Below, piece by piece: positions 24,599 to 33,661 of a stretch of 50,902 nt of DNA. The position numbers were made by a program, and so were the translations under genes. The stretch's first letter is position 1; each line of letters opens with the position of its first letter. Source of the stretch: Bacillota bacterium (GTDB lineage: Bacteria; Bacillota; Limnochordia; Darwinibacteriales; DTU012). The stretch covers positions 1 to 50,902 of the forward strand of contig JAAYMV010000044.1 of NCBI GenBank assembly GCA_012521185.1, in the 5' to 3' direction. The notes beneath the pieces were generated by a model. The model was given only the letters and a program-made list of their open reading frames with translations, was not told the origin of the DNA and ran no database searches.

Positions 24599-24634
24599 TA
24601 AAAAAGAGTTCTTATCAGATCCGATAAGAACTCT
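24599..24634 (-). terminator. Rho-independent terminator of the hydrogenase operon
   Basis: On the minus strand AGAGTTCTTATC and GATAAGAACTCT form a perfect 12 bp stem with a GGATCT loop and a run of T. It lies 13 bases after the hydA stop. Confidence 0.93.
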
Positions 24635-24646
24635 AGGCTACTAAGT

Positions 24647-26650
24647 TTACTTTTCAACCTTTGATTTTACTAACTGAACAATTTCAGGTATTTGCTCAAA
24701 ACCTACGTTACCCATCACCTTGTCATCAACAATTACCACTGGACCACCAGCACATTGTTGACAACAGAAAGCTGCTCTTAGTTTTACATCCTCTTCATAG
24801 CCATCTTTTTGCAACATGTCTGTTAAGGTTTTTAGAATTTTTACGGAACCTTTAAGATAGCAAGAAGTACCGACGCAAACCTGGATATCGACAGGAGCAT
24901 TTTCCGGTTGATTAATTTTAATTGCTTCCGTATCAATTCTCCGTCTTGAGCCATATTCAGTATGCAAAGCTTGATGTGCTTCTTCACTGCCTGGCTCAGT
25001 TAACCATTGTTCATACAAAGAAGTGAGCATTGGGTTTTGTTGTGATTTGTGCATTTGTAAGCGTTGGTCTTCCCGGTATAAACCTTTAGTCCGTTCTTTA
25101 CGTAAATTTGTACCGTTTTGAGAAATAGGCTGACCGGCACCGCCCACACAACCGCCTGGACAAGCCATTACTTCAACCAAGTCATAATGAGCTTTTCCAC
25201 TCTTAATGTCTTCTAATAACTGGCGAGCATTGGCCAGGCCATTAACAATAGCTACTTTAATTTCAGTTCCTTTTAAATCAGCAGTAAAATCACGAACTCC
25301 TTCATGACCACGAACGTCGTTAAAGACGACATTTTGTAGCTCTTCTTTTGTTACAATTTCATAAGCATTTCTTAAAACTGCTTCTGATACTCCACCACTA
25401 TTCCCAAAGATAACTCCAGCACCTGTAGCAAAGCCAAAAGGCATATCCAATGCTGTTGGTTCTAAGGACGCAAAATCAATACCAGCTTCCTTAATCATGG
25501 AAATTAGTTCCTGAGTAGTTAAGACCAAATCTACATCTGGATTATTCGCAACAAAGAATTCTTCACGACCTGCTTCAAACTTTTTAGCAGTACAAGGCAT
25601 AATACTGATCACATACACTTGTTCTCGGTCTAAACCAAGATCCTGAGCATAATAACGTTTAACTACTGATCCAAACATTTGCTGTGGTGAACGACAGCTT
25701 GAAAGATTATCTAAAAACTCAGGATAATACTGTTCTGCAAATTTGACCCATGCTGGACAACAAGAAGTAAACTGAGGAATATTCTTTTTCTCACTAAACC
25801 GTTGAATAAATTCTCTAGTTTCTTCAATTACAGTTAAGTCAGCAGCAAAGCTTGTATCAAAGACTTTATCTACGCCCATTTGTTTTAAAGCAGTAGTAAT
25901 TTGACCAAGAGTTGACTGACCAACAGGTAAACCAAAGGCTTCACCAACAGCAACGCGCACTGCAGGAGCAATTTGGACAATAACCGTTTTAGAATCATCG
26001 TAAATTGCATCCCAAGCTTGATCAATCTGTGATTTTACTACTAAGGCACCTGTTGGACATACAGCAGAACATTGACCGCAGTTTACACAATCAACTTCTC
26101 CAAGCTGTTTATTAAATGCTGGTGTTACCATCATTTTTGCACCGCGGTGAGCAAAATCTAGTACACCAATACCTTGAATTTCTTTACATACACGAACACA
26201 ATCACCGCATAAAATACATTTATTCGGATCTCTAACAATTGATGGTGAGCTTACGTCTAAAGGAAGTTTGACATCTCGTTCCCCAAACCGAATTTGACGA
26301 ACGCCATAGCGTTGGGCTAAATCTTGTAATTTACAAGTTCCGCTACGCTCACACATTGTACATTCCCGATCGTGGTTAGCTAATAGAAGTTCTAGAATGT
26401 TTTTTCTTACTTTGCGTAATTTAGCTGTATTAGTTCGAACAACTAACCCATCTTCAGGAGGTGTATGACACGAAGCCTGGATGCCGCGGCCTTCTATTTC
26501 CACAATACACATCCGACAGGCACCATAAACACTTAATTCTGAGTAATAACAAAAGGTTGGTAAATCGATTCTTGCTTTCCGTACGACTTCTAAAATATTA
26601 GTTTCTTTGTCAAATTCAACCTTTTGTCCATCGATAATCATTTGACCCAT
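24647..26650 (-). CDS. hydA: [FeFe] hydrogenase catalytic subunit HydA (group A3, multimeric)
   Basis: Catalyses H2 formation or oxidation within an HydABC complex that couples NADH and ferredoxin. I place the start at MGQMIIDG (26650), because GTGGAGGTG precedes it; the open frame extends 8 codons into hydB. In order, on the 667-residue product: an N-terminal [2Fe-2S] domain (about 30-62), a His-ligated [4Fe-4S] segment (about 92-106), two [4Fe-4S] clusters (about 144-200), then the H-cluster with TSCCPAW (C297/C298), MPCTAKK (C353) and CPGGCVGG (C497, C501). A thioredoxin-like [2Fe-2S] tail follows (C592, C597, and Cys at 629-633). All canonical H-cluster residues are present. Last gene of the operon, 1 bp after hydB. 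Confidence 0.97.
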   Translation of the reverse strand: MGQMIIDGQKVEFDKETNILEVVRKARIDLPTFCYYSELSVYGACRMCIVEIEGRGIQASCHTPPEDGLVVRTNTAKLRKVRKNILELLLANHDRECTMCERSGTCKLQDLAQRYGVRQIRFGERDVKLPLDVSSPSIVRDPNKCILCGDCVRVCKEIQGIGVLDFAHRGAKMMVTPAFNKQLGEVDCVNCGQCSAVCPTGALVVKSQIDQAWDAIYDDSKTVIVQIAPAVRVAVGEAFGLPVGQSTLGQITTALKQMGVDKVFDTSFAADLTVIEETREFIQRFSEKKNIPQFTSCCPAWVKFAEQYYPEFLDNLSSCRSPQQMFGSVVKRYYAQDLGLDREQVYVISIMPCTAKKFEAGREEFFVANNPDVDLVLTTQELISMIKEAGIDFASLEPTALDMPFGFATGAGVIFGNSGGVSEAVLRNAYEIVTKEELQNVVFNDVRGHEGVRDFTADLKGTEIKVAIVNGLANARQLLEDIKSGKAHYDLVEVMACPGGCVGGAGQPISQNGTNLRKERTKGLYREDQRLQMHKSQQNPMLTSLYEQWLTEPGSEEAHQALHTEYGSRRRIDTEAIKINQPENAPVDIQVCVGTSCYLKGSVKILKTLTDMLQKDGYEEDVKLRAAFCCQQCAGGPVVIVDDKVMGNVGFEQIPEIVQLVKSKVEK

Positions 26651-26651
26651 A

Positions 26652-28529
26652 TTAAGACACCTCCACGATGGCATTAAACTTACAAGATTCTATGCAAGCG
26701 CCACATTTAATACATTTTTCTTGGTTAATAACAAAAGGATTTTTAATTTCTCCCTCAATTGCACCAACTGGACAAACTCTTGCACATCTGGAACAACCTT
26801 TACATAAATCAGCAACAATCGTAATTCGTTTTAAAGCCTGACATACTCCAGCTGGACAACGTTTTTCCACAACGTGGGCTAAATATTCTTCTCTAAAGTA
26901 TTTTAAGGTAGTCAATACTGGATTTGGAGCAGTTTTACCTAAGCCACATAAAGAACCAATTTGTACAGATTCACCAATCTCTTCTAGTAAATCTAGATCT
27001 TCTTCGGTTCCACGGCCTTCAACAATTTTTTGTAAGATTTCTAACATCCGGCGAGTACCTTCACGACAAAGTACACACTTACCGCAGGACTCATTTTGCG
27101 TAAAGTTCATAAAGAAGCGAGCAATTTCAACAATACAAGTGTTTTCATCCATTACTACTAGACCACCAGAACCAACCATGGCTCCAGCTGCTTGTAAAGA
27201 GTCAAAATCTAAGGGTAAGTCAAAGTGTTCTTCAACTAGACAGCCACCCGAAGGTCCACCAATTTGCACAGCCTTAAACTTCTTGTTTTGCCGAACACCG
27301 CCACCAATTTCAAAAACTACATGCCGCATAGTAGTACCCATTGGCACTTCAATTAAACCAGTATTGGCAACTTCACCAGTTAAAGCAAAGGTTTTAGTAC
27401 CTGGACTCTTTACAGCACCGATTGATTTAAACCAATCTACACCTTTGCGAATAATTTCAGGTACGTTTGCTAAAGTCTCCACATTGTTAATAATGGTCGG
27501 CTTATCCCATAAACCTGATACTGCAGGGAAAGGTGGCTTTGGACGGGGCATTCCTCTTTCACCCTCAATAGAAGCAATTAATGCGCTTTCTTCACCACAA
27601 ACGAAAGCTCCCGCACCTTCTTTGATTTTTAATTCGAAATTAAAGCCTGAGCCAAAGATATCTTTACCTAATAGTCCATATTCTTGTGCTTGTTTAATGG
27701 CAGTACGTAATCTTTGAACAGCTAAGGGATACTCAGCACGAACATAAATATATCCTTCGTCAGCACCAATTGCATAACCAGCAATAGCCATTGCTTCAAT
27801 GATCCGGTGAGGGTCACCTTCCATTACACTTCTGTCCATGAAGGCACCTGGATCCCCTTCGTCACCATTACAAATAATATATTTTTTATCAGATTCTTGC
27901 GCTGCCGCAATCGCCCATTTACGACCAGCAGGGAATCCGCCGCCGCCGCGACCACGTAAATTAGAATCATTGATCATTTGCACAACTTCTTGGGGAGATA
28001 AACGTAAAGCTTTTTCTAAACCTTGATAACCATCATGAGCAATATAATTGCGAATATCTTCCGGGTTGATTTCACCACAATTAGCTAAGGCAACCCGAGT
28101 TTGATATTTATAAAATGGAATCTCGCTTTCCCTTTGATAAACCTCACCAGTATTAGGATGTCGATATAAAAGTCTTTCTACTACCTGATTATTAACTGTG
28201 GCTTCAACAATTTCAGCTGCATCTTCAGGCTTAACTTTTACATATAAAGTGCCAGTAGGTTCAACTCTTACTAGAGGACCCATTTCACAGAATCCATGAC
28301 AGCCAGTGGTAGTCGTAGTAATACCGCCACAGCCATCTTCTAATAAATAGTCGACAGTAACCAACACATCTCTTTTTGCTAATTCATCCTTAAGGGCATT
28401 ATAGACTTGTTCTGCACCGTTGGCCATACAACCAGTTCCAGCACATAACAAAAGCGAGGAGGTTTGCTTTTTCATTGCTTTATTATATTTTTCTTTTACA
28501 GCTAATAGCTGCTCTAAATTACGAATCAT
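26652..28529 (-). CDS. hydB: Hydrogenase subunit HydB (NuoF-like, NADH and FMN binding)
   Basis: A 625-residue diaphorase subunit of the bifurcating hydrogenase. The N-terminal thioredoxin-like [2Fe-2S] domain has C29, C34, C77 and C81. The NuoF core has GRGGGGFPAGRKW (192-204) for FMN/NADH and ICNGDEGDPGAFMDR. The cluster motif ESCGKCVLCREGTRRM lies near 485-500. A C-terminal double [4Fe-4S] ferredoxin domain ends the protein (CKGCSRCARVCP and CIKCGACIESC). It is flanked by hydC (3 bp) and hydA (1 bp), so the subunits are tightly co-translated. Confidence 0.97.
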   Translation of the reverse strand: MIRNLEQLLAVKEKYNKAMKKQTSSLLLCAGTGCMANGAEQVYNALKDELAKRDVLVTVDYLLEDGCGGITTTTTGCHGFCEMGPLVRVEPTGTLYVKVKPEDAAEIVEATVNNQVVERLLYRHPNTGEVYQRESEIPFYKYQTRVALANCGEINPEDIRNYIAHDGYQGLEKALRLSPQEVVQMINDSNLRGRGGGGFPAGRKWAIAAAQESDKKYIICNGDEGDPGAFMDRSVMEGDPHRIIEAMAIAGYAIGADEGYIYVRAEYPLAVQRLRTAIKQAQEYGLLGKDIFGSGFNFELKIKEGAGAFVCGEESALIASIEGERGMPRPKPPFPAVSGLWDKPTIINNVETLANVPEIIRKGVDWFKSIGAVKSPGTKTFALTGEVANTGLIEVPMGTTMRHVVFEIGGGVRQNKKFKAVQIGGPSGGCLVEEHFDLPLDFDSLQAAGAMVGSGGLVVMDENTCIVEIARFFMNFTQNESCGKCVLCREGTRRMLEILQKIVEGRGTEEDLDLLEEIGESVQIGSLCGLGKTAPNPVLTTLKYFREEYLAHVVEKRCPAGVCQALKRITIVADLCKGCSRCARVCPVGAIEGEIKNPFVINQEKCIKCGACIESCKFNAIVEVS

Positions 28530-28532
28530 CTT

Positions 28533-29030
28533 TTACATACCCTCCCTTTTTTCTAGTACATCAATAATTAAGTCAATTGCTTCCGGAGTTACTTGACCAT
28601 ACACTTGATCATTAATGGTTATTACTGGTGCTAAACCGCAAGCTCCTAAGCAAGAAACAGTCTCCACACTAAACAGACCATCATCAGTAGTAGCTTTTCC
28701 GTCTACAAGCTTAACTCTTTTGCGAATGGCTTCATAAATTGGAAGGGAGCCACGTACGTGGCAGGCTGTACCATCGCAAACTTTAATAATATATTTACCT
28801 TTAGGATCTAAAGAAAATTGGGCATAAAATGTTGCCACTCCGTAAACCGTTGCTGGTGATAAATTCAAGGCAGTGGCAATGTAAGTTAATAATTCTTCCG
28901 GTAAATAATTGTGCTTTTTCTGCACTTCTTGTAAAACTGGTATTAGTGCTGACGGTGTTGAACCATGTTCCGCTATCACGTTGTTTAGCCAATCAACAAC
29001 ATTTAAGTCAACTTCTGCTGTGCGACTCAT
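28533..29030 (-). CDS. hydC: Hydrogenase subunit HydC (NuoE-like)
   Basis: A 165-residue thioredoxin-like [2Fe-2S] subunit. The four Cys ligands are in CDGTACHVRGS and SCLGACGLAP, and the N-terminal helical part has LIPVLQEVQKKHNYLPEE as in NuoE. It shuttles electrons between the flavin subunit and the rest of the complex. It starts 15 bp after the phosphatase gene with AAGGGATG as ribosome binding site. Confidence 0.96.
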   Translation of the reverse strand: MSRTAEVDLNVVDWLNNVIAEHGSTPSALIPVLQEVQKKHNYLPEELLTYIATALNLSPATVYGVATFYAQFSLDPKGKYIIKVCDGTACHVRGSLPIYEAIRKRVKLVDGKATTDDGLFSVETVSCLGACGLAPVITINDQVYGQVTPEAIDLIIDVLEKREGM

Positions 29031-29045
29031 TTAATTCATCCCTTC

Positions 29046-30185
29046 TTAAAAATATTCAATAATGATTATTTTTCCAAGTGCTTCTAACACTTTGGCAATC
29101 TTAGTAATTAACTGTTGCTTCAGTGATAAATGCACTGGTAAATTAGGATTTTGATGTGCAGGATTAATGGCCCTGCCAACTAAAAAATTAACTTGATCCA
29201 CTTCTAACAACAATTTTGCTAATCTAGTGGCTCCATTATCTTCATCAGGTATTTGCTGTTGACTCAAATATTCATAAACAGCTGATAAAGTCAACAAACC
29301 TTCAGTAACTAAATTTATTCCATCAATATGACCAATTGGCGGTATTGAATCACTTTCATTGATTTGTGCCAAATCCACTGATATTTCTGTACTTAACTCA
29401 CGAGCGACAATTGTAGCAGTGGTTCCACCACAAACCACTCGTTTTTGTTTTTCAGCTAACAGTTTTTGCAAATAAATTTGATCGTCATTTGGATCGATTG
29501 GCGGCCCAACAGCAACTGTCGCTGTTCTCTTAGTCCGAATTTTGCAAGCCAGTACTGTAGCATCATCCCGCATAATACCCCTAGATAATTTTTTTGCGTT
29601 CCTGAGAACGCTTTCACAAATTTCGGCAGAGGAATAATTTTGTTTAGCCAAAGCTTCCAGATACTTTCCCAGCTTTGGCGCCGTCCAGCCAAAATCTAAA
29701 GAGGCGCCAATTCCAGCATGAATCACTCCATCGGTAACTGCTACTAATAAATCATTTTCTTGGCCTTGCCAACGATATTCTTTAATTGAAAGAGTGCCAA
29801 TTTGCCGAGAACGGGCTTCTACAGCTTGAACAACCCCGTTACGAACTAGAAAAAAGCCAGGATTATCAAACTCAACCACATAAATGCCGCCATCTTGGAA
29901 AATTTGAATTAATGTTAAAGTTGAATAGGCTAATTTCCTAACTTTACATTCTGGCAAAGTACGCCCAATGGTATTGACTACATCTTCCAAAGTTGCCCCT
30001 GCTTCTAACATAGTCATGGCAACTTTCGTAGTAATAGTCGCTAATATATTAGCTTTTACTCCACTGCCTAAACCATCAGACAGTACCGCTAAAAAGGAAG
30101 TGGGTGTTTGACCAAATAGAACTCGATCACCACATAAGGGTTCACCATGTTTATTTAAACTTGTAAAAGCTCGTTCCACAATCAT
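29046..30185 (-). CDS. SpoIIE-type PP2C serine phosphatase next to the sensory hydrogenase
   Basis: A 379-residue protein. Residues 1 to about 215 form a PP2C/SpoIIE phosphatase domain: GDRVLF, LSDGLGSGVKAN (metal-binding Asp and Gly), VAVTDGVIHAG and MRDDATVLACK carry the expected acidic metal ligands. Residues 230-379 are a second domain that I do not recognise with certainty; it contains VVCGGTTATIVAREL and may bind a small ligand. Co-occurrence of a PP2C phosphatase with HydS and hydCBA is known in Clostridia and Thermotogales, but its target is not established. It starts 2 bp after hydS, with its ribosome binding site inside the hydS 3' end. Confidence 0.88.
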   Translation of the reverse strand: MIVERAFTSLNKHGEPLCGDRVLFGQTPTSFLAVLSDGLGSGVKANILATITTKVAMTMLEAGATLEDVVNTIGRTLPECKVRKLAYSTLTLIQIFQDGGIYVVEFDNPGFFLVRNGVVQAVEARSRQIGTLSIKEYRWQGQENDLLVAVTDGVIHAGIGASLDFGWTAPKLGKYLEALAKQNYSSAEICESVLRNAKKLSRGIMRDDATVLACKIRTKRTATVAVGPPIDPNDDQIYLQKLLAEKQKRVVCGGTTATIVARELSTEISVDLAQINESDSIPPIGHIDGINLVTEGLLTLSAVYEYLSQQQIPDEDNGATRLAKLLLEVDQVNFLVGRAINPAHQNPNLPVHLSLKQQLITKIAKVLEALGKIIIIEYF

Positions 30186-30187
30186 AG

Positions 30188-31882
30188 TCAGCCTACCTCC
30201 AGGCCGTCTGTAAAACTACTATCTTCTTGCTCAATCAACTTGATTAATCGGCTGAGCAATATCTGAGTCTCTGCAGTGGTTTCTCCTAATAAACTAGCCA
30301 CTTCTTGGGCAACTCGCATTTGATTTTCAATAACCTCATTAGCCTTTGCTAAGGTTTCTTCTTTTAACTTAGCTAACTCTTGGGTCTGCTGCTGTTCTTT
30401 AGTGATATCTAAGAAAATACCCACTATCACATTTGGGCGTTTAACAGGAAAGATTAATTGTTTCGTAATCTTCGAATACTGCGGATAATAAACTATATCA
30501 GAAATTAACCGTCCTTGTGATTTTACTAACTTATAATTCGAAGAATCAAATAAGTGCTCCACATTTTTATTCAAGTAATCCTGTCCTCGACAGTTAAAAA
30601 TTCGTTCGGCTGCAGGATTAACTGCCAAAATATTTAGATCACAGTCTGTAACAATAATACCATTCGGTGTATTTTCAATAATAATATTGGACAAAGATTC
30701 AGCGCGAGCCCGCATATAAGGAATACACATTTCTAACTCTGCTTTACCACGAGCTACAGCAATAGCTTTTTCACGACAAGTATTATAACCACAAGCACCA
30801 CAATCTAGCTGTTCACTTGGATGTAATCGTCCATTGCTAATTAAAACCTGATTGATTTCTGCTTCAGTTACTGGCTGTGGCTGATAAGGTGTAGCTACAA
30901 ATTCTCGCTGCATTTCCACAGCTGTCCAAGATGGGCGTGACGTTGTTTGATGAGTTGCTACCCTGGTTAATAAACGAGATTGTCGTACATAATAAGGATC
31001 CTGATCATTCCAACCAGCTCCACCTAAACATCCGCCTTTACAAATCATTAATTCTGCCCATTGACCATCAACATGGCCATCTTGCAAAGCATCCAAAAAC
31101 TGCAAACATTCATTAAAGCCGTCCACTACCCATAGTTTGCCTGACAACTCAGTCTCACTGCGACTTTCTCGCCAACCGCTTTCTGTAGAAAACAAACGAG
31201 CGGTTGCCGTACCTGTAACATCTGGTTGAACTGGTTCTAACTCTTCAACTGCCAATCCTAGCTTTTTAAAGCCAGAAAATATTTCTTGATAAGTTAAGGC
31301 TAAATCAACTTCTGTAAACTGAAAACATTCTACCTTTTTAGCTGGACAAGAATCAATATAAACCACTTTTGCCTCTGGATAACGCTGCTTTAGAGATCGT
31401 CCATGAACCAACATCGGTGATAATACAGGTACTAAGTTTTTAACTAAACTAGGATAGTATTTTTGAATTAAGTTAACAAGTGCTGGACAAGCAGAAGTTA
31501 ATGCTGGTGCAAGATGTTCTGATTGCCAATAATGAGCACTGACTTCTGGTACTACCCAGGCTGCTTCCTCGACTCTTTTAATTCCAAGTTTATACAAAGT
31601 GGCAACGAGAGCATATGGTTCTTGTTGAAGGCCTAAATATGAGGGTGCTAAACTAACTACAATTTCTTCTTTTTTCTCTAACCAAGTTTGAAAAACAGAC
31701 CATTGATCAACTAGTTCTTTGGCCTGCTGTGGGCAAATTCTTGTACAAAGTCCACAATTAATACATTCTTCCGCAATAATCTCAGCTTGCCCTTGGCTAA
31801 TCCGAATAGCCTTTAAAGGACAAAAACGGATACATTTATAACAGTCTTGACATTGCCCATAACTGCCTTCAATAACAACCAT
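30188..31882 (-). CDS. hydS: Sensory [FeFe] hydrogenase HydS (group C) with PAS domain
   Basis: A 564-residue protein. Two N-terminal [4Fe-4S] clusters (C11-C21 and C40-C50) precede a hydrogenase domain. Its H-cluster loops are TSACP (A131, C132), DSCPAKK (C179) and ICKGGCLGG (C281, C285). All four H-cluster Cys ligands remain, but the proton-relay Cys of catalytic enzymes (first Cys of TSCCP) is Ala and the usual Met-Pro before loop 2 is Asp-Ser. A further [4Fe-4S] domain (C361, C364, C369, C386), a PAS domain (about 395-495) and a coiled-coil tail follow. This layout matches group C putative H2 sensors. It leads the operon and probably signals through the adjacent phosphatase. Confidence 0.92.
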   Translation of the reverse strand: MVVIEGSYGQCQDCYKCIRFCPLKAIRISQGQAEIIAEECINCGLCTRICPQQAKELVDQWSVFQTWLEKKEEIVVSLAPSYLGLQQEPYALVATLYKLGIKRVEEAAWVVPEVSAHYWQSEHLAPALTSACPALVNLIQKYYPSLVKNLVPVLSPMLVHGRSLKQRYPEAKVVYIDSCPAKKVECFQFTEVDLALTYQEIFSGFKKLGLAVEELEPVQPDVTGTATARLFSTESGWRESRSETELSGKLWVVDGFNECLQFLDALQDGHVDGQWAELMICKGGCLGGAGWNDQDPYYVRQSRLLTRVATHQTTSRPSWTAVEMQREFVATPYQPQPVTEAEINQVLISNGRLHPSEQLDCGACGYNTCREKAIAVARGKAELEMCIPYMRARAESLSNIIIENTPNGIIVTDCDLNILAVNPAAERIFNCRGQDYLNKNVEHLFDSSNYKLVKSQGRLISDIVYYPQYSKITKQLIFPVKRPNVIVGIFLDITKEQQQTQELAKLKEETLAKANEVIENQMRVAQEVASLLGETTAETQILLSRLIKLIEQEDSSFTDGLEVG

Positions 31883-31935
31883 GTCCTACACTCCCATCAG
31901 AGTTATTAGGATGCTAAGTGATATTCTTCACATTT

Positions 31936-31964
31936 ATTATATATTTTTTATATAGTAATTGCAA
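31936..31964 (-). promoter_or_regulatory. Sigma-A-type promoter of the hydS-PP2C-hydCBA operon
   Basis: On the minus strand TTGCAA (31964-31959) is followed after 17 bases by a perfect TATAAT (31941-31936). It lies 54 bases before the hydS ATG. The spacer is A/T-only except for one C. Confidence 0.85.
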
Positions 31965-31986: not shown

Positions 31987-32082
31987 AAATTTATCATGCG
32001 GAATTAAGCAGGATATTCTCAATATTTGTGCAAGTTTAATATTAACCACGGTATGCTTAAGGGAACAAAGAAAGGGGCAACA

Positions 32083-32397
32083 ATGTTACGTTTTATTACC
32101 GTTACAATGATCCTCTTGCTCTGTACCGCTCAGGGCTTTTTCCATGATCAGCTCTATGTAATAGAAACAATCAACGAGGGAATTGTTACTTTAGAAGCCC
32201 TAACCCTGGATAAACAAGGACAATATCCATTCGTCTTTTATTGTGACATAAATAAACTGCCCTCAGCTAAAGAAGGGCAGGTCATACTAGTTAAATTTGC
32301 AGGTAACTATCTAATAAAACTCGAACCACAGGAGCAAATTACTGAGGAACGACAAGTTACTATCACTAATTTATTAGAAAGGCTCAAACACCCTTAA
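32083..32397 (+). CDS. Small secreted DUF3006-like protein
   Basis: A 104-residue protein with an N-terminal signal peptide (MLRFITVTMILLLCTAQGFF). The rest has a DUF3006-like pattern: YVIETINEGIVTLEAL, then INKLPSAKEGQVILVKF and a charged helix ending in ITNLLERLKHP. I put the start at the ATG at 32083, with AAAGGGG 6 bases upstream; in-frame starts further up have no such site. It converges on a second DUF3006-type gene, and the stops share TTAA. The likely parent domain is a small beta-barrel of unknown function. Confidence 0.65.
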   Translation: MLRFITVTMILLLCTAQGFFHDQLYVIETINEGIVTLEALTLDKQGQYPFVFYCDINKLPSAKEGQVILVKFAGNYLIKLEPQEQITEERQVTITNLLERLKHP

Positions 32398-32621
32398 TCC
32401 TTATCAGGCCGATTAATTAATTTATCAAGTAGACGGGTGACTCGTTCTTTGGCAGCTTTGGTAGATTCTTGATCAATTTCTAGCTGAACCAGTAAATGGT
32501 CACCCTCAACTATTCCAACAGGCAATAGTTGCCGAGGCAAATTTACCTCTATTTCTTGCTCAGTGCATAAAAGAACTCCATAATCGCCTTCAAATCGGTC
32601 AAGAACCGCCTTCCACTGCAT
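32394..32621 (-). CDS. DUF3006 domain protein
   Basis: A 75-residue protein with the DUF3006 pattern: AVLDRFEGDYGVLL, then VNLPRQLLPVGIVEGDHLLVQLEID and a C-terminal helix VTRLLDKLINR. The function is unknown. DUF3006 genes often lie beside secreted metallo-beta-lactamase-fold proteins, as here, where it begins 11 bp after that gene. Its stop overlaps that of the convergent secreted paralogue (shared TTAA at 32394-32397). Confidence 0.82.
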   Translation of the reverse strand: MQWKAVLDRFEGDYGVLLCTEQEIEVNLPRQLLPVGIVEGDHLLVQLEIDQESTKAAKERVTRLLDKLINRPDKD

Positions 32622-32632
32622 TTAATCCCTCC

Positions 32633-33661
32633 TTAATCTACATAAAAATAATCCTTGATTTTTTCCAAGGTAGCTGCGCCAATTCCAGAAATATTGATTA
32701 AATCCCCGACTTGGTTAAAGCCATATTGATTTCGATAATTGATAATTCGCTCAGCCAGCACTGGCCCTATTCCCGGAACTGTTTGCAATTCTACTGCTGA
32801 CGCAGTGTTTAGATTTATTCGGTAATCTAAGCCCACTTGCCACTTACGAGTAGTTATTTCTCTAGTTTGGCCATCTGTGGTAATTGTAATCGTTCCATGA
32901 TAATCAGTACGATAAATTTCCACACCTTGAAGATTAATCAATGTTTGCAGTGCTGGATGAGAATACGTGTTATCCTCACCTACCATAATGATGGCAATTT
33001 CTGGCTGAATAGCGGCTAAAAATGGTGAAGAACTTGAAGTACTGCTACCATGATGAGCTACTTTTAATACTTGCGCTTGTGGTAAGGTTTTACTGGCCAC
33101 TAGCAGCTGCTCTGCTTGGCTTTCTATATCACCTGTAAATAGAAAATTTTGACTGCCAACTTGCATCCAAATTACTACCGAATTATTATTTAAACCTGTT
33201 AGAAATTGTTCTTGAGGATGAAGAAAAACAAAACGGTCGATCCCTGGTAGTGACACTTCCATACCAGCCTTTACTTGATAAAATGGTATATCTAATTGGT
33301 CAATCAAAAGTAAAAATCGTTCATAGGTTCTAGTCGTATGAATTTGAGCATCAGCATATACTTTTTCCACCGTAAAGTTCTCTAGAACAGGAATTAATCC
33401 ACCAATATGATCGGAATGAGGATGGGTGGCAACCATCAGATTAATTGTCCCGACGTTAGCCTCATGTAAAAAAGGTACCAAGCTACGCCGCCCGGCACTT
33501 TCCTGTCCTCCATCAATCAAAACCACTGCACCGGCCGTTGTCCGAATTAATATGGCATCCCCTTGTCCAACATCAACAAAATCAACAACAACTTCAGCGG
33601 CAAATACTACAGACGAATACAAAGATAGTAACAGTAAAAATATCAAAAGCTTTTTCTTCAA
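32633..33661 (-). CDS. Secreted ComEC-like metallo-beta-lactamase fused to ComEA-like helix-hairpin-helix domain
   Basis: A 342-residue exported protein. A signal peptide (MKKKLLIFLLLLSLYSSVVFA) precedes a metallo-beta-lactamase fold resembling the C-terminal domain of ComEC: DVGQGDAILI, LIDGG, THPHSDHIGG (metal-binding HxHxDH), FTGDIE and VAHHGS. Residues about 282-342 are a ComEA-type DNA-binding helix-hairpin-helix (INLNTASAVELQTVPGIGP, then GDLINISGIG). The combination suggests a nuclease acting on DNA outside the membrane, perhaps for uptake or nutrient use, but no activity is proven. The start is TTG with GGGAGGTAG upstream. It sits between an orphan ParA gene and DUF3006. Confidence 0.9.
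   Translation of the reverse strand: MKKKLLIFLLLLSLYSSVVFAAEVVVDFVDVGQGDAILIRTTAGAVVLIDGGQESAGRRSLVPFLHEANVGTINLMVATHPHSDHIGGLIPVLENFTVEKVYADAQIHTTRTYERFLLLIDQLDIPFYQVKAGMEVSLPGIDRFVFLHPQEQFLTGLNNNSVVIWMQVGSQNFLFTGDIESQAEQLLVASKTLPQAQVLKVAHHGSSTSSSSPFLAAIQPEIAIIMVGEDNTYSHPALQTLINLQGVEIYRTDYHGTITITTDGQTREITTRKWQVGLDYRINLNTASAVELQTVPGIGPVLAERIINYRNQYGFNQVGDLINISGIGAATLEKIKDYFYVD

Follow-up and report, generated by a model that had tools for sequence, protein, structure and literature searches.

On balance, we favour the reading that HydS, a PAS-domain [FeFe] hydrogenase-like sensor, and the SpoIIE-type phosphatase encoded directly after it make up one two-chain signalling device, a split form of RsbP in which the PAS domain and a C-terminal helix of the sensor act in trans on the phosphatase. 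H2 or the redox state would be read at the H-cluster and FeS centres of the sensor, and the PAS domain and the invariant helix would pass the signal to the phosphatase through a presumed physical contact, as the PAS-coiled-coil linker of RsbP does in cis. The phosphatase would then dephosphorylate a Ser/Thr phosphoprotein encoded away from the locus, and the hydrogenase of the same operon may come under control of the pair.

Both open reading frames were present as originally predicted, on the minus strand of the 50,902-nt stretch of DNA that was analysed (the window), and both were assigned from the reading frame and domain matches: HydS (564 aa) at 30188..31882 and the phosphatase, a PPM/PP2C enzyme with an extra C-terminal domain (379 aa), at 29046..30185. 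On the same strand, HydS was separated from the phosphatase by 2 bases and the phosphatase from hydC (NuoE-like, 28533..29030) by 15 bases, followed by hydB (NuoF-like, 26652..28529) and hydA (24647..26674), which encodes an NADH-dependent [FeFe] hydrogenase of group A6 (NF040763, 795.8 bits against a cutoff of 765). A sigma-70 promoter (TTGCAA-17-TATAAT, 31936..31964, minus strand) was predicted by consensus match only, 53 bases before the HydS start, and a terminator with a 13-pair stem and a T run (24605..24634, minus strand) was predicted just after hydA. With these two consensus matches at its ends, the run of HydS, phosphatase, hydC, hydB and hydA probably forms a single five-gene unit. 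Scans of the region gave 24 promoter matches against 25.4 by chance in shuffled sequence, and 10 predicted terminators against 6.5 by chance. An imperfect palindrome, TGTGA-N6-TCACT, lay just downstream of the predicted -10 (window 31917-31932) and recalls Rex/CRP-type operators; such palindromes matched 4 times in the window against 1.2 expected, and 4 of 100 shuffles equalled this count, which is not clearly above chance. Further upstream (window 32026-32640), two short and seemingly related genes on opposite strands, DUF3006-like by eye, separated the operon from a metallo-beta-lactamase/HhH gene.

Pfam matches in HydS comprised PF02906 (132 bits), PF04060, two N-terminal 4Fe-4S sites and a PAS domain. 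The N-terminal 2x[4Fe-4S] ferredoxin-like part (residues 8-56, 31715..31861) held eight cysteines, seven of them kept in 71/71 relatives and one in 66/71. It was followed by the H-domain (residues 74-291, 31010..31663), by the C-terminal [4Fe-4S] domain PF04060 (residues 358-388, 30719..30811), which was the second most conserved stretch of the protein, and by the expected PAS domain (residues about 399-503, 30374..30688). The H-cluster residues agreed with those named in advance: when aligned with the HydA of this operon, C132, C179, C281 and C285 fell on its H-cluster cysteines and A131 on its relay cysteine. D177-S178 stood in place of Met-Pro in loop 2, where the relatives mostly read Gly-Pro (Gly 68/71, Pro 67/71). 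Among 164 aligned relatives, C132, C179 and C281 were found in every sequence, and C285 was Cys in 162. The H-cluster cysteines, the PAS domain placed after the C-terminal FeS domain and the neighbouring Ser/Thr phosphatase gene are all traits of HydDB group C3.

The original prediction took loss of the relay cysteine to be established for sensory group C hydrogenases, and this proved too general. The relay position was Cys in 51/71 of the nearest and 38/93 of the phylum-survey phosphatase-linked HydS sequences, which are overlapping samples. The residue was retained in 28/31 cases with a HydA2-type hydrogenase downstream versus 3/11 with hydCBA downstream, a split that is confounded by ancestry. 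In published counts for sensory sequences, 17% have Cys and about 43% have Ala at this position (PMC10055695). Loss of the relay cysteine should not be used as a diagnostic of the phosphatase-linked class.

The phosphatase was confirmed as SpoIIE-like. PF07228 matched residues 30-216, the fold was confirmed against SpoIIE, and SpoIIE was the closest solved structure to the catalytic domain (residues 1-217, 29535..30185, minus strand). The metal ligands, whose absence would have counted against the original prediction, were retained as D20, D37-G38, D152-G153 and D207-D208, all of them invariant in the family. The chain opened directly at the first strand of its fold and lacked an N-terminal linker.

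A survey of 398 genomes yielded 96 phosphatase loci (one, L131, was read individually). HydS lay directly upstream in 95 of them, showing that the adjacency is not due to chance, and the closest loci had the same arrangement wherever the contig extended far enough. Judged by gene order, the phosphatase and HydS are inseparable; no natural fusion of the two was seen in the surveyed loci. The only orphan phosphatase, encoded without HydS (L173:1507-2646), no longer had the catalytic CGD motif and was missing some of the SDG region, which by its sequence is decay following loss of the partner. The C-terminal helix of HydS (residues 504-553, 30224..30373, minus strand) contains QMRVAQEVASLLGETTAET (residues 521-539), the most conserved 19-residue stretch of the protein, ranking above the H-cluster pocket. 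When the helix was searched alone in 149 genomes, 48/48 matches lay directly before a phosphatase match (compared by eye). A near-invariant HydS helix that appears to occur only beside this phosphatase is new with this work. Its conservation and the synteny could instead reflect a role in assembly or stability.

The proposed route of the signal resembles that of RsbP and RsbU of Bacillus subtilis, in which a helical linker and switch helices place a PPM phosphatase under the control of a PAS domain or a partner protein (PMC12143880). Coiled-coil formation by the linker switches RsbU on, which has experimental support, and RsbP is proposed to respond likewise to its PAS domain (PMC12143880). 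Their linker, however, is part of the phosphatase chain, whereas here the linker-like helix is the C-terminal end of the sensor. Data on TamHydS speak against the C-terminal cluster signalling by a change of its redox state (PMC13104023).

Three loci carried a PAS-plus-helix protein of 167-170 aa, with no H-domain, before the same phosphatase (L022:382-894, L035:7495-7998 and L055:1747-2250). The first two are Planctomycetota records; the third is labelled Nealsonbacteria, and its genes are alike. All three carried hydC/hydB-like genes nearby, and the second, by Pfam, also encoded CO dehydrogenase, acetyl-CoA synthase and a molybdopterin (formate dehydrogenase-like) enzyme. A PF02906 search of four PAS-only genomes, whose completeness is unknown, found no match in two and one match elsewhere in the genome in the other two. 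The C-terminal helix persisted in these partners, indicating that the PAS domain and helix stay constant and that the hydrogenase domain is an input that can be exchanged. A wider reading, which we hold tentatively and rate slightly short of an even chance, is that the phosphatase with a metabolite-sensing C-terminal domain would serve gas and redox metabolism as a modular output unit, docked in trans by a unique PAS-linked helix. HydS would be just one among its input heads, and the Planctomycetota PAS head would couple the unit to a CO dehydrogenase/acetyl-CoA synthase operon.

The extra domain of the phosphatase had been described as unassigned, and a profile search bore this out: residues 217-379 had no Pfam match, either alone or across 55 members. 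The unnamed alpha/beta domain (residues 219-379, 29049..29531, minus strand) carried the conserved motifs GPP, CGG, PP, TEG and NPAHQNPN. Compared by sequence with solved structures, it gave no convincing match (best E 0.12). It was modelled at a mean pLDDT of 92 as a five-stranded alpha/beta domain, and in the full-length model GPP, CGG, TEG and NPAHQNPN each came directly after successive strands. In the model, these motifs would occupy the strand-end position where Rossmann-like domains usually have a ligand pocket, and the domain probably binds a small metabolite that tunes the activity or targeting of the phosphatase. The top Foldseek matches were methylglyoxal synthases, with a similar GTT loop; the best was 1b93 (E 4.6e-4, probability 1.00), at a TM of only about 0.4-0.5. 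The domain was not assigned to methylglyoxal synthase because profile comparison by hhalign gave only 6.6% probability over 46 columns; there was also no PF02142 match, and the His motif followed a different strand. Stand-alone copies of the domain (about 158 aa) were observed directly after hydCBA in three surveyed genomes (L125:7945-8415, L127:7599-8075 and L126:7607-8086), and NPAHQNPN was not retained in the two that were aligned (L125 and L127). A phosphatase domain with a modelled ligand-like pocket is likewise new with this work, and the original prediction was right that it was undescribed.

Whether HydS senses H2 itself depends on its H-cluster. HydA and HydS are present in the host genome (98.24% complete, 126 contigs) despite no detected HydF or HydG: HydG gave no match at E 0.001, and no true HydF was found, the best match reaching 92 bits over the N-terminal part only against a cutoff of 325.6. 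An H-cluster in the host HydS is therefore not assured. Misbinning was rejected as the cause, since the composition of the window matched that of the host contigs. One 5.7-kb contig of the host genome (L273, G000:C70) had a GC content of 42% and a tetranucleotide correlation of only 0.41 to the rest, and is rRNA or foreign. The missing genes reflect either assembly gaps or real absence. Among 19 HydS-bearing genomes searched for HydG, six (the host included) had no match and a seventh (G052, 3 contigs) had one only below the cut-off. These results, together with the existence of PAS-only partners lacking an H-domain, fit a reading in which HydS is a redox or FeS sensor, not an H2 sensor, and its H-domain in this strain holds only the [4Fe-4S] part. 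We consider this improbable: in an assembly of 126 contigs the maturation genes may fall in a gap, the HydA of the same operon also requires an H-cluster, and the four cysteines are kept in all or nearly all of the 164 relatives. If the absence of HydF and HydG is real, H2 sensing by an H-cluster becomes doubtful in this organism.

The neighbourhood of the pair did not point to a target of the phosphatase. Around 80 phosphatase loci, the only recurring genes were HydS, a small [2Fe-2S] thioredoxin-like protein and the downstream hydrogenases; the small gene lay two before the phosphatase (position -2), preceding HydS, in 42 loci. Genes for a kinase, a STAS protein or an anti-sigma factor did not recur near the pair in these 80 loci, and the target is therefore expected to be encoded at a distance. 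One candidate route is a partner switch like that of RsbU and SpoIIE, in which the phosphatase would dephosphorylate a STAS anti-anti-sigma factor and so release a sigma factor that transcribes hydrogenase and fermentation genes. The proximity of SpoIIE among solved structures suits such a switch, as does the action of characterised family members on STAS proteins (PMC11418112). It nevertheless appears unlikely to us, about on a par with the redox-sensor reading, because neither STAS nor anti-sigma genes recur beside the relatives and the single STAS match of the host genome adjoins its only strong RsbW/SpoIIAB-type ATPase, away from this operon, as in a sporulation pair.

Somewhat less unlikely, though still doubtful, is that the phosphatase acts post-transcriptionally, taking off phosphate that a Hanks-type kinase has put on metabolic enzymes or on the hydrogenase itself. 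The host genome has two such kinases (PrkC and a 533-aa kinase), beside three other SpoIIE-type phosphatases, and the unequal changes of ADH and ALDH activity in hfs mutants of Thermoanaerobacterium saccharolyticum suggest post-transcriptional control (PMC5707799). However, PrkC already has a small phosphatase of its own linked to it, at a distance of about 2.6 kb, and transcript changes in Ruminococcus albus were strong (PMC6776011).

The HydS-phosphatase pair, known from fermenting bacteria, and its proposed role have already been published, and this locus is a new member. HydDB labels group C3 [FeFe] hydrogenases "phosphatase-linked (putative)" (PMC5037454). As here, they have an H-cluster domain in a PAS protein, with the gene next to a Ser/Thr phosphatase and upstream of a catalytic hydrogenase; the label comes without a mechanism, and the C-terminal phosphatase domain and the trans-acting helix lie outside its description (PMC5037454). 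The hfsABCD operon of Thermoanaerobacterium also runs from sensor (HfsB, a PAS hydrogenase) through phosphatase (HfsC, a serine phosphatase) to hydrogenase (PMC5707799, PMC11837493), but here hydCBA takes the place of an HfsD-type/HydA2-type enzyme and the small [2Fe-2S] gene is absent. The small protein before HydS in the relatives is possibly the counterpart of HfsA; HfsB and HfsC were likened by description, not by sequence. In T. saccharolyticum, deletion of hfsA/B raised the ethanol yield, while deletion of hfsC, hfsD or the whole operon did not (PMC5707799). The hfsB deletion phenotype required hfsC and hfsD (PMC5707799), whose effects are hard to separate. By analogy, these genetics agree with HydS either working through the later genes or holding them back. 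For the R. albus operon, an identical role was proposed, in which HydS senses H2, its PAS domain signals and a putative Ser/Thr phosphatase modifies regulators; its downstream genes, unlike those here, encode a ferredoxin-only hydrogenase and an alcohol/aldehyde dehydrogenase (PMC6776011). The transfer of an H2 or redox signal from HydS to the phosphatase, as originally predicted, stood as the best reading, with metal ligands intact and the genes paired in 95/96 loci, although it was already published as a hypothesis (PMC5037454, PMC6776011, PMC5707799, PMC11837493). In the freely accessible papers that were read, no description was found of the HydS helix, the phosphatase C-terminal domain or the PAS-only variant.

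Interspecies H2 transfer and ethanol yield in anaerobes hinge on the way in which PAS-domain [FeFe] hydrogenases pass on their signal. The present analysis names two specific and testable parts of such a system, the invariant HydS helix and the new phosphatase domain with its ligand-like pocket.
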